Under the pieces are notes generated by a model. That model was not told where the DNA came from. It saw nothing but the letters and a program-made list of their open reading frames with translations, and searched no databases. This document shows, piece by piece, positions 1,567-6,862 of a stretch of DNA of 10,710 bases (position 1 is the stretch's first letter; each line of letters begins with the position of its first letter). A program made the position numbers and the translations under genes. The stretch spans positions 1 through 10,710 of the forward strand of contig CAMZLA010000058.1 in the NCBI GenBank assembly GCA_947311665.1, written 5' to 3'. The DNA comes from an uncultured Candidatus Altimarinota bacterium. GTDB taxonomy: Bacteria > Patescibacteriota > Gracilibacteria > CAIRYL01.

Positions 1567-3036
1567 TTACTTATTCAACATCAGTTCAGCTTTTCTTACT
1601 TTTGCAAGTGTTATTAATATATCTCCTCGAGTTTTCAATTGATAATTCATAGTATCATAAATATCCCAAGGAATGTAAATATATTCTAGATTACTGTCTT
1701 CTTGAAATCCACTCATCAATGTTTCAAATCCATCTTTATATGAATATACATATTCATCTTCTGGTTTATATGGAGAATATGCTAAATCTCGTGCTAAATA
1801 TTGAATTCGAGAATCTTCAATATCATAATATTCTACTGTTAATCGTAAATCTTGTAATCGGATTCTTCGGTTTAATTTTTTTGCATTTGTTATAAATTCT
1901 CTTACAAATATTATATCATTTTCTGTTCCATTTTTGTTTAAAAATTCTATAGCATCAGATGCATTTCCAGTGAAAGAATTAAGATTTTCAAATTTTTCTC
2001 GTTCTTTTGATTTCTGAATAATATCTTCTTTTGTAAATTCAAGAAACATTTCTATAATATTTGTAATTTCCCAATCATTAGCAGAAATTTCTGGAAAAGT
2101 TATTGGGATTGTTTTATAGCTCATTGCTATATTTGATGAAATGTTTATGCTTGCATTATCATTATCCCAAGAGTTTTTATAATCGAAACTTCCTTCTATT
2201 GCTATGTTCGTAATAGCATTATTTTTTGTTGAAAGAATTATTTGTAATGGATGTGTTTTTGATATAACTATTTCATCTCCAATTTCAGGAAGAAAAGAAA
2301 TGATATATGTTGTTCCTTTTTTTTCTATTGTTGCATATCCATTTTCTAGTGCAGAAGTGAATGCCCATTTCAATTCTGCATATCCATTAATATCTGATTC
2401 TTCATCAAAGTCTTCTTTCATTGTTTGAATATATTCTATTATTTCAGGAAATTCATTCTCAATTTCTACAACATCTAAAACAATCCATTTATTTTCAAAA
2501 AGTTCTACAAATTCCATTATTCCTTCTACAATATGTCGAACAGAATCATTGTCATGAGTATTGAGAGTGTTGATAGAGAATTTTCCAGCAAATTGGAATG
2601 TGTCAAAATCTAAAATTTCTTCATCAGAAAAAGTAGCATCAATTTCTAGAGGGAGATAGCTTTCAATTCCATCAACAGAAATAGAAAACTTCTGATTATT
2701 ATTTATTATATGATATGCATTTTTATTTTTTGTAATACTGGCATCGTCTACATTATATGAAATTGAATATGTTGTTTTATTATCTTTCCAATCAAAATTT
2801 TCTCCATTTATATCGATGAAAAAATCTATATTTGTTGAAAAATTTTGTTCAAAACTCTTTTGAACAAGAGAAATTACTTCGTTAGCAAGTAGATCTGGTT
2901 GCGGTTCTTTTACTTCTTGCAAGCATTCATATCCACAATTACCTAGGGTAAGAGCAGGACTAGCAAAAGAGACTTGATTTGAAGTCGTTGTTATTGCAAT
3001 CAATGCAATGGCAGCACTATATAAAATGTTTTTCAT
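1567..3036 (-). CDS. Secreted protein of unknown function, 489 aa, with pilin-like stretch near the C-terminus
   Basis: I do not recognise a named family. I start at the ATG reading leftward from 3036 because it begins a classic signal peptide: MKN, then a hydrophobic core (ILYSAAIALIAI), ending near SFA/SP around residue 25. An in-frame ATG at 3087 would only add low-complexity residues encoded by the A-tract repeat at 3043-3072. No lipobox is seen. The mature protein is acidic, rich in Asn, Asp, Glu and Ile, and predicted largely extracellular. Its only two cysteines are C34 and C38 (GNCGYEC), just after the signal peptide, and could form one disulfide. The middle (about 60-330) alternates short strand-like segments. 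Near the C-terminus, RRIRLQDLRLTVEYYDIEDS (residues 390-409) resembles the D-x-x-R-x-x-D-L-x-x-L-x-x-x-L-E-x-Y-Y segment of type IV pilin-like proteins, but the pilin N-terminal helix is absent. The leader is U-rich with no Shine-Dalgarno sequence. The gene is divergent from the DsbA-like gene. Confidence 0.75.
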   Translation of the reverse strand: MKNILYSAAIALIAITTTSNQVSFASPALTLGNCGYECLQEVKEPQPDLLANEVISLVQKSFEQNFSTNIDFFIDINGENFDWKDNKTTYSISYNVDDASITKNKNAYHIINNNQKFSISVDGIESYLPLEIDATFSDEEILDFDTFQFAGKFSINTLNTHDNDSVRHIVEGIMEFVELFENKWIVLDVVEIENEFPEIIEYIQTMKEDFDEESDINGYAELKWAFTSALENGYATIEKKGTTYIISFLPEIGDEIVISKTHPLQIILSTKNNAITNIAIEGSFDYKNSWDNDNASINISSNIAMSYKTIPITFPEISANDWEITNIIEMFLEFTKEDIIQKSKEREKFENLNSFTGNASDAIEFLNKNGTENDIIFVREFITNAKKLNRRIRLQDLRLTVEYYDIEDSRIQYLARDLAYSPYKPEDEYVYSYKDGFETLMSGFQEDSNLEYIYIPWDIYDTMNYQLKTRGDILITLAKVRKAELMLNK

Positions 3037-3042
3037 AAATAT

Positions 3043-3072
3043 AAAAAAAGAATAAAAAAAAGAATAAAAAAA
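3043..3072. repeat. A-tract tandem repeat in the leader of the secreted-protein gene
   Basis: A run of seven or eight A followed by GAAT is repeated twice (3043-3053, 3054-3065), and a further run of A follows (3066-3072). On the minus strand, where it would be transcribed, it gives a leader of U-runs separated by AUUC, ending just before the ATG. It has no coding sense of its own. It could be a simple slippage-prone tract or a U-rich translation-enhancing leader. The sequence cannot distinguish these. Confidence 0.6.
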
Positions 3073-3099
3073 TATCTCCCATATCATAGCAAAATACTA

Positions 3100-5019: not shown

Positions 5020-6099
5020 CTAATATTTAGATTTTTTCTTTTTTGTTGGTTTTTCAATGGTATTAATATTCTCAGAAACATCTTTTCCTCCTCTTATTCC
5101 TGTTTTTTCAATAACTTTATCTCTAATTTCTGTGAAAAGTTCAGGATTTTCTTTGAGAAATATTTTTGCTTTTTCCATTCCTTGCCCCAGTCGAGTTTCG
5201 CCATATGAATAAAATGCTCCAGCTTTTTTCACAATTTCATTTGCTACTCCTACATTTACCAAATCTCCTTCTTTAGAAATTCCTTCATTAAACATAATAT
5301 CAAATTCTGCTTGTTTAAATGGAGGAGCTACTTTATTTTTTACAACTTTTACTCGAACCCCATTTCCAACCGATTCTTTGTCATTTCCTGTTCCTACATC
5401 AATCTTTTTTGTTCGTCGTATTTCCAATCTGACTGATGAATAAAATTTTAATGCATTTCCTCCTGTTGTTGTTTCTGGGTTTCCAAACATTACTCCAATT
5501 TTCATTCGCAATTGATTGATGAAAATAATAGTAGTGTTTGTTTTTGAAACAACTGAAGTAAGTTTTCGTAATGCTTGTGACATTAGTCGAGCTTGAAGTC
5601 CCATATGACTATCTCCCATCATTCCTTCAATTTCTGCTTTTGGTGTTAATGCTGCAACAGAATCAACAATTATTAAATCAACAGCTCCAGATCGTGTTAA
5701 TATTTCGGTGATTTCTAGTGCTTGTTCTCCAGAATCTGGTTGAGAAATAGTACAAGTGGAAAGATCGAGTCCGATTTTTGAAGCATATTCTGGGTCAAGT
5801 GCATGTTCTGCATCTATAAACGCAACTTTTCCTCCTTTTTTTTGACACTCTGCGGCAATATGCAATGTTAGGGTTGTTTTTCCTGAACTTTCTGGTCCAT
5901 AAATTTCAATAATTCGTCCTTGAGGAATTCCTCCTCCCAATGCGATATCAAGACCAATAGAACCTGTTGGGTATGTTTCAATATTCATTGATTTTGCATC
6001 TGATAAGTTCATAATAGATCCTTCTCCATATGCCTGATGAATTTGAGAAAGGGCAGCTTCTAGTGCTGCATCTTTTGGATTCGCTTTTTTTGTTGCCAT
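5020..6099 (-). CDS. recA: RecA recombinase
   Basis: A 359-residue protein, the typical RecA length. It forms ATP-dependent filaments on single-stranded DNA for homologous strand exchange, and the filament triggers LexA self-cleavage. Walker A is GPESSGKT (residues 68-75), the catalytic glutamate is E98 (DAEHA), Walker B is LIIVD (142-146), loop L1 is around [12 protein letters not shown] (156-167) and loop L2 includes [11 protein letters not shown] (206-216). The C-terminal domain is present, but the last residues are basic ([10 protein letters not shown]) where many RecA proteins have an acidic tail. An ATG at 6216 is in frame, but its 39 extra residues would be encoded across the divergent promoter and palindrome and do not resemble RecA. 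The start leading into [17 protein letters not shown] is preferred. TTAACT lies 12 bases before it (6112-6117, minus strand). The stop is TAG. Divergent from lexA with a shared operator candidate at 6174-6194. Confidence 0.99.
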
Positions 6100-6151
6100 A
6101 AAACAGTGTAAAGTTAAAGAGTAGTATAAGGTGTTTTGTTTTTCTGAAAAT

Positions 6152-6180
6152 ATATTACTTTTTATTTTTGACGGTGTCAA
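6152..6180 (-). promoter_or_regulatory. Putative recA promoter
   Basis: On the minus strand, TTGACA (complement of 6175-6180) is a perfect -35 box. Seventeen bases on lies TAATAT (complement of 6152-6157), matching four of six bases of the -10 consensus. Transcription would begin near 6145, giving a leader of about 45 bases before the recA start. The -35 box lies within the left arm of the palindrome at 6174-6194, so a bound repressor would block it. Confidence 0.6.
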
Positions 6181-6194
6181 ATAAAAATTGACAC
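6174..6194. promoter_or_regulatory. Candidate LexA operator (SOS box) shared by recA and lexA
   Basis: A perfect inverted repeat GTGTCAA-N7-TTGACAC, with AT-only spacer ATAAAAA (6181-6187). It lies in the middle of the recA/lexA divergent region. Each arm contains TTGACA reading outward, the -35 box of the gene on that side, so one dimer bound here would cover both promoters. Autoregulated lexA and LexA-controlled recA are the usual SOS arrangement. The motif differs from the known E. coli (CTGT-N8-ACAG), B. subtilis (GAAC-N4-GTTC) and alphaproteobacterial (GTTC-N7-GTTC) boxes. That LexA binds it is inference. The symmetry could partly reflect two back-to-back -35 boxes alone, though the outer G-C pair also extends it. 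Confidence 0.65.
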
Positions 6195-6216
6195 TTGTTT
6201 TTTCATTTGATAGCAT
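6188..6216 (+). promoter_or_regulatory. Putative lexA promoter
   Basis: TTGACA (6188-6193) is a perfect -35 box. After a 17-base spacer comes TAGCAT (6211-6216), four of six matches to the -10 consensus. Transcription would start near 6222, giving a leader of about 35 bases to the lexA ATG at 6257. The -35 is inside the right arm of the palindrome. The arrangement mirrors the recA promoter on the other strand. Confidence 0.6.
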
Positions 6217-6256
6217 AATGATGAAATTTTTATTTTAACTCTCTTTATATATATTT

Positions 6257-6853
6257 ATGAAACTTCATCCTTTACAGATAAAACTTTTATCTCTGGCAGA
6301 AGAAGATATGCTTTCTGGTTTAAGTCTTCGAGAAATTGGAGGATTGGTTGGAGAATCTCATCCTCAAAAAATAAAATATCACATGGAAAAATTGGAAGAA
6401 AAAGGATTGATTTATATAGATCAAGACTCTGGACAAATAGAGTTTTTGCGACAAGAACAACAAGATTCTATTCAAATTCCTGTTTATGGAATGGCTCAAT
6501 GTGGGCAAGGAAATTTATTTGCTGATGATACTATGGACGATATTGTTTCTTTTCCTACAAAACTTTTAGGGAGATATCAAAATAATGTTTTTGCAACACA
6601 AGCAGTTGGAAATTCTATGTATCCTAAGATAAATAATGGTGATTTTGTTATTGTTGAGCATCAAATAACATTTGAAGAAAATAAAGTGTGTCTTGTTCTT
6701 GCTGATGGAGACCCTCGAATAAAGCAAGTTATGACTCTTGATAATAGACATATTGCATTAAAATCGTTTAATGATGAATTTGAAACTCAGATTTTAAAAT
6801 CATCAGATGTACAAATTTTGGGAATTGTGAGAAAAGTAGTGAGTGAAATTTAA
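6257..6853 (+). CDS. lexA: LexA repressor (SOS regulator, S24 self-cleaving family)
   Basis: A 198-residue protein, close to the 202 of E. coli LexA. Residues about 4-65 form a winged helix-turn-helix with the LexA pattern: L-x-x-x-Q-x-x-L-L near the start, LSLREIGGLVGESHPQKIKY as the helix-turn-helix, then LEEKGLI leading into the wing. The C-terminal S24 domain has the expected three sites at nearly the E. coli positions: scissile bond C82-G83 (in GMAQCGQG), nucleophile S120 (in AVGNSMYP) and general-base lysine K156 (in DPRIKQV). The Cys-Gly bond, rather than Ala-Gly, is also found in UmuD and some phage repressors. It should repress DNA-damage genes until RecA filaments trigger its cleavage. 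Divergence from recA makes LexA, rather than a phage repressor, the best call. TTAACT is at 6235-6240, and no Shine-Dalgarno sequence is seen. The transporter gene follows after nine bases. Confidence 0.93.
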   Translation: MKLHPLQIKLLSLAEEDMLSGLSLREIGGLVGESHPQKIKYHMEKLEEKGLIYIDQDSGQIEFLRQEQQDSIQIPVYGMAQCGQGNLFADDTMDDIVSFPTKLLGRYQNNVFATQAVGNSMYPKINNGDFVIVEHQITFEENKVCLVLADGDPRIKQVMTLDNRHIALKSFNDEFETQILKSSDVQILGIVRKVVSEI

Positions 6854-6862
6854 AAAATAATT

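Follow-up and report, generated by a model that had tools for sequence, protein, structure and literature searches.

A palindrome overlapping both −35 boxes between divergent recA and lexA as a candidate LexA operator in an uncultured patescibacterium

The window, by which we mean the whole 10,710-nucleotide stretch of DNA that was analysed, belongs to a genome of 841,694 bases in 124 contigs that is 82% complete, and it carries recA and lexA as divergent neighbours. The recA gene (5020–6099, minus strand) encodes 359 amino acids; we placed its start at nucleotide 6099, close to the RecA starts of relatives, within an open frame that extends to 6216. The lexA gene (6257–6853, plus strand) encodes 198 amino acids with an S24 peptidase domain and the recognition region HPQKIKYH. 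Both identities, assigned in the original prediction, are backed by Pfam and NCBIfam, with the reservation that LexA scores 73.3 bits (E 1.9e-20) against the NCBIfam lexA equivalog, below the cut-off of 110.95; against PF00717 (S24) it reaches 78.6 bits at a cut-off of 23.3. Ser120 and Lys156, which we take to be the catalytic residues, lie in a region that aligns to solved LexA structures and are invariant across 14 aligned sequences including the window LexA, and Cys82-Gly83 stands at the expected cleavage place and is invariant in all seven close sequences. Classic LexA is cleaved at an Ala-Gly bond and UmuD at a Cys-Gly bond. A profile of seven LexA sequences aligns to the solved LexA structure 3k2z over positions 7–195; PF01726, the LexA DNA-binding domain of Pfam, was not reported for the window LexA and is present in two of its six close homologues P0002–P0007.

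The nearest full-length LexA proteins are metagenomic (P0002 and P0003, 69–71% identical). An earlier scan of named genomes for lexA gave no match, and the search of named genomes returned ten remote relatives, several of them patescibacterial, of which the one with the best E-value is from Candidatus Gracilibacteria (36% identity). A search of viral contigs yielded one remote match. The 150-aa metagenomic protein P0008 joins a front that appears UmuD-like by eye to a C-terminal part that is 86% identical to the window LexA and covers 47% of it, and is either a real fusion or an assembly chimera. Elsewhere in the window, a 506-aa protein encoded at 1567–3087 (minus strand) has no Pfam match at E 0.001, and lexA is followed after a gap of 9 bases (6854–6862) by a plus-strand gene for an EamA-type transporter, which may be co-transcribed with it.

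Between the two gene starts, the 21-bp palindrome GTGTCAAATAAAAATTGACAC, of the form GTGTCAA-N7-TTGACAC, occupies nucleotides 6174–6194, exactly as had been predicted. We propose that this palindrome, with its core TGTCAA-N7-TTGACA at 6175–6193, is the main operator and binds a LexA dimer. When the 157 bp between the genes were subjected to 20,000 dinucleotide shuffles, neither the 21-mer nor its 19-mer core arose; any perfect inverted repeat of 7 bp that had no fewer than three G/C and a loop no longer than 12 turned up in 6 of 2000 shuffles. A promoter scan recovered on both strands the outward-facing −35 boxes and the −10-like hexamers 17 bp away from them that had been noted before: the putative lexA promoter combines TTGACA (6188–6193, plus strand) with TAGCAT (6211–6216), and the putative recA promoter combines TTGACA (6175–6180, minus strand) with TAATAT (6152–6157), so that the two hits run from 6188 to 6216 and from 6180 to 6152, each with a 17-bp spacer and 10 of 12 matching positions. 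An inverted repeat could also stem from an RNA hairpin, such as a transcription terminator, and a terminator scan does list 6173–6195 with eight pairs and a T-rich tail. We regard this explanation as extremely improbable, because the repeat is located between divergent gene starts with no plus-strand gene ending just upstream, contains just three G-C pairs, and is conserved across genomes in a manner that tracks half-sites and their spacing.

The minus strand from 6193 to 6168 reads TGTCAA-N7-TTGACA-N1-CGTCAA over 26 bp and therefore contains a third half-site, CGTCAA (6168–6173, minus strand), that was absent from the original prediction. It lies one base past the palindrome core, within the spacer of the recA promoter; the chance of a third half-site at this fixed distance, calculated from base composition and counting both sides, is ~0.001. 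The arrangement had been described as a compact symmetrical switch. A TTGACA promoter box is indeed present in each arm, but the symmetry is not complete, as the third half-site is found on the recA side. The third half-site also generates an overlapping palindrome, TTGAC-N3-GTCAA (TTGAC-GGT-GTCAA, 6168–6180), whose right half is common with the main palindrome and whose extended arms (6161–6172 and 6176–6187) are complementary at 10 of 12 positions. The exact N3 pattern occurs once in the window's genome, at recA/lexA; with up to one mismatch it occurs five times there, and the backward pattern 48 times.

Comparison with close relatives bears on whether a regulator reads the palindrome at all. 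A LexA match was absent from all four other genomes of the same genus and from both genomes of other genera of the family, at a completeness of 76–96%, and recA is present in all six (73–84% identical). The recA upstream DNA of the four genus-mates, none of which has a lexA match, contains a lone TTGACA in three cases and the mirrored TGTCAA partner in none. If the palindrome were merely two back-to-back −35 boxes, the perfect TTGACA in the core of each arm, the −10-like hexamer 17 bp off on either side and the retained TTGACA at recA in three of these four genomes would all be accounted for. It would not be expected, however, that the mirrored half is missing from genus-mates without a lexA match, that a third half-site sits at a fixed distance, that the arrangement recurs exactly at recA/lexA in 11 distant genomes, or that polymerase genes carry the mirrored half upstream of TTGACA (the last two points are detailed below), and we consider this reading very unlikely. 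Either loss of lexA in the relatives or its gain here may underlie this distribution. Within the stretches examined, neither recA nor alaS of the genus-mates adjoins the window's other genes; by eye, recA of L018–L021 has another neighbourhood, beside genes resembling those of ribosomal proteins L25 and S6.

We extended the comparison to the class. A LexA profile search matched 253 of 353 class genomes, a count that includes weak and general S24 matches; TGA codons inside lexA in many genomes of the class would fit Gracilibacteria and, together with the patescibacterial relatives of the window LexA, lead us to regard the window's genome as patescibacterial. Upstream DNA was examined for 69 class lexA genes, mostly the best-scoring ones (29 loci and 40 stretches). 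The recognition helix HPQTVLNKL is encoded by 27 of the 69, all in family f4, whose LexA is only ~30% identical to that of the window. The exact 19-bp N7 core is present in 64 of 353 class genomes, compared to 24 of 353 for a backward control. For the exact 26-bp pattern TGTCAA-N7-TTGACA-N1-YGTCAA we obtained 12 places in the 353 genomes, namely the window and 11 sites in f4 (11 of 49 f4 genomes), and every one of these 11 is positioned between divergent recA and lexA. Six more sites have one mismatch, four of them upstream of lexA (G025, G034, G035 and G058), one at a recA (G047) and one elsewhere (G091); sites with two mismatches were given no weight, as the control contains them too. Among 379 genomes sampled across the phylum, the 26-bp pattern is exact only in the window's genome and has one mismatch in one other, with no f4 genome among the matches listed.

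Aligning recA/lexA intergenic regions of relatives had been suggested as a check, and in f4 it returns this palindrome with its spacing unchanged; in 11 of the 49 genomes the match is exact and includes the third half-site. The site had further been suspected to be specific to its lineage, but is also shared with the distantly related f4. Conservation of the proposed 7-bp arm extends to the 6-bp TGTCAA/TTGACA, and its outer G/C varies in f4. Many recA/lexA pairs of f4 are divergent and flank the array TGTCAA-N15-TGTCAA-N7-TTGACA-N1-YGTCAA. By eye, the middle TGTCAA of this array is not in a −35 position for either gene, so promoter function does not explain its retention.

Two differences between f4 and the window were counted against the LexA-operator reading: the third half-site lies towards lexA in f4 but towards recA in the window, and the recognition helix is HPQTVLNKL in f4 versus HPQKIKYHM in the window. 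Given this inversion of the array with respect to recA and lexA, simple inheritance of one piece of DNA does not explain both regions, and the window LexA falls outside the f4 clade in a tree with long branches that was rooted for drawing only. The 26-bp grammar was thus either inherited from an ancestor and then re-oriented, or reached twice.

Several further observations were made in the class genomes. A frame of ~120–160 amino acids lies between operator and lexA in L068, L069, L070, L073 and L072 of f4 and would come under the same control; by eye it resembles a four-helix bundle in L068, L069, L070 and L073 and is a different protein in L072. In L077 (G034), an exact N7 palindrome precedes, by ~100 bases, a gene judged dnaX-like by eye, possibly a further LexA target; other exact N7 sites inspected by eye in f4, away from recA/lexA, showed no clear repair gene. 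Contig C64 of G091 has four places in 7.3 kb that resemble the 26-bp operator with one or two mismatches, perhaps a repeat. The 12 exact N7 sites of G045 were considered as a large regulon and rejected: among six inspected, three lie in long frames, two by short tandem repeats and one between long frames.

The N3 palindrome raises the question of which pair of half-sites is occupied by the dimer. The true LexA site could be the tighter TTGAC-N3-GTCAA (6168–6180, dyad at 6174), in which case the N7 palindrome would be the sum of one half of the N3 site and the lexA −35 box. An unbiased scan for inverted repeats by spacing, with no fixed core, was abandoned as too noisy owing to nested half-site arrays. 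We then used CAA/TTG cores up to 800 bases upstream of the 27 f4-type lexA genes and found a spacing of N7 in 14 of 27 (0.7 expected) and of N3 in 18 of 27 (0.6 expected), with the next most frequent spacings at counts of 4 and 5; since the f4 genomes are related, these counts are not independent. At N7/N8, at least 11 of 12 positions match in 18 of the 27 genes and all 12 in 11; the remaining nine reach just 8–10 of 12, which was counted against the LexA-operator reading. At the other spacings from 0 to 20, 11 of 12 positions are reached in 21 of 27 genes, because the half-sites are crowded, which also counted against that reading, and 12 of 12 in none. In favour of the N3 site are its top rank among the spacings upstream of f4 lexA genes and, in the window, its extended arms with 10 of 12 complementary positions; moreover, L038 retains the N3 pair alone, and in L061, L063 and L097 the pair is retained and the other half is shifted outwards by one base. 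The lexA arrays as such are compatible with either pair.

Promoters of Y-family polymerase genes provide a setting in which the half-sites are isolated. Searching the window's genome together with 30 of the 49 f4 genomes, 31 in total, we found six such genes. TGTCAA-N8-TTGACA is present at 11–12 of 12 positions upstream of five of the six, all in f4, at 96–159 bases before the matched domain, and was equalled by 0–4 of 1000 shuffles. These five genes belong to two genera, g12 and g25. The polymerase gene of L197 has no site (one of six), which was likewise counted against the LexA-operator reading, and G023 carries the polymerase N8 site, yet no LexA match was obtained in this 77% complete genome. 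Copies at repair genes of relatives, as anticipated in the original prediction, are thus found, albeit in another family and with a spacing of N8. The N3 pair is absent upstream of all six polymerase genes. Because the isolated polymerase promoters have N8 in 5/6 and N3 in 0/6, we consider the N7/N8 palindrome more likely to be the dimer site than the N3 pair. Two other LexA types of the class, with five and six loci, also speak against N3: they have spacings of N6–N8 and no N3 in the same orientation, one of them additionally N19 in two of six loci. Taken with the evidence in its favour, an N3 dimer site appears unlikely to us.

Other LexA types of the class use other arms and spacings, as judged from small samples. 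In the HHQKV type, CGCAA-type arms are separated by N8 in three of five loci and by N7 in one of five; GAACAA-TTGTTC pairs occur in four of seven loci checked, mostly of the SPSVV type, with N7 in two and N6 in two (one imperfect). CGCAA/TTGCG-like and GAACAA/TTGTTC arms with spacings of 6–8 were seen in L105, L111, L112, L113, L116, L042, L055, L058 and L122. Upstream of lexA, TGTCAA is separated from TTGAC by N16 in L049 (HPQKIKYH) and by N22 in L120 and L123–L126 (YPQTVKHH). HPQKIKYH is the closest to the window's helix and yet has N16, which counts against a simple rule linking helix and spacing. The N7 site is absent at 11 lexA loci with HPQKV and then Q, A or L in the recognition region. 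This absence, and the wide spacing in L049, L120 and L123–L126 despite recognition regions closer to the window's, were counted against the LexA-operator reading.

The 19-mer core TGTCAA-N7-TTGACA has one perfect copy in the window's genome, at recA/lexA. A sole site with one mismatch is located upstream of a gene resembling a purine-synthesis protein. Allowing up to two mismatches, we counted 44 N7 sites compared to 39 for the backward control, so weak sites are near chance; this small excess and the lack of another perfect N7 copy were counted against the LexA-operator reading. Of the 42 two-mismatch sites, 13 were inspected and lie mostly inside reading frames. None of the 14 inspected among the 43 other sites of N7 spacing is upstream of a recognised repair gene. 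A Y-family polymerase was not found in this 82% complete genome, in a search whose control matched in 11 of 14 known genomes. Given that neither a second perfect N7 site nor a Y-family polymerase was found, the regulon may comprise little more than recA and lexA, as judged from an N7 scan with ~18% of the genome missing.

A single site is common to the upstream DNA of lexA and recA, as is characteristic of an SOS box, and LexA control of the two genes is well supported by the sequence comparisons. Very probably, the palindrome serves as operator for LexA in a control region common to recA and lexA, in which one dimer would silence both promoters until released by RecA-triggered cleavage. By analogy with the LexA family, the following steps are envisaged: (i) in the undamaged cell, a LexA dimer would occupy TGTCAA-N7-TTGACA through its two winged-helix domains; (ii) with each arm doubling as a −35 box, this one dimer would block RNA polymerase at the recA and lexA promoters; (iii) the third half-site CGTCAA would probably accommodate one part of a second dimer, which would lie over the recA promoter and bind cooperatively; and (iv) upon damage, RecA filaments would induce self-cleavage of LexA at Cys82-Gly83 by Ser120/Lys156, which would free recA and lexA together. 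A bolder extension, which we put forward tentatively and rate as somewhat improbable as a whole, would have the LexA half-site coincide with the sigma-70 −35 hexamer, so that LexA reads a mirrored −35 box, with the grammar TGTCAA-N7-TTGACA-N1-YGTCAA retained or acquired anew, in opposite orientation to the genes, by two remote LexA lineages, and with the damage response of the window's genome shrunk to one recA/lexA switch.

LexA operators vary strongly between bacterial groups, for reasons that are debated. The present system resembles classic LexA/RecA SOS control with its autoregulated lexA operator in having an S24 LexA-type repressor beside recA, an inverted-repeat operator over promoter boxes and, in f4, sites at Y-family polymerase genes. 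It differs in that one operator is common to divergent recA and lexA, the half-site is the −35 hexamer, and a Y-family polymerase was not found in the window's genome. The accessible portion of one article quotes TTAC-N3-GTAA, GGTT-N10-AACC and GTTC-N7-GTTC, three of 17 motifs that it reports overall (PMC8565304). TGTCAA with N7/N8 shares with these the spaced half-sites and differs from all three, and TTAC-N3-GTAA (Bdellovibrio) resembles TTGAC-N3-GTCAA at 6168–6180. The LexA motif of Balneolaeota, TTACACATATTTTWTACATA, as given in the available part of its source, is likewise group-specific and was derived from promoter regions of LexA homologues, but is a direct repeat with other half-sites (PMC7739468).

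A study of the LexA and damage network of Patescibacteria by Sanchez-Osuna et al. 2017 appears in the reference list of PMC8565304, and the excerpt of PMC7739468 cites references 51–53 for LexA binding direct repeats, of which 52 opens with the Sanchez-Osuna authors and 'Comparative genomics of the'. This study may already describe TGTCAA-N7/N8-TTGACA or a related motif; our literature search, with subscription journals mostly outside its scope, returned no recognisable account of it. Unless Sanchez-Osuna et al. 2017 already contains it, TGTCAA-N7-TTGACA is a new form of the LexA operator, which is known to vary greatly. The half-site that equals a −35 box, the N7–N8 spacing in f4 and the other arms and spacings of other LexA types in the class constitute a natural test series for how recognition-helix residues, half-sites and spacing change jointly, and the palindrome provides a candidate SOS box for a bacterial group that is hard to grow.
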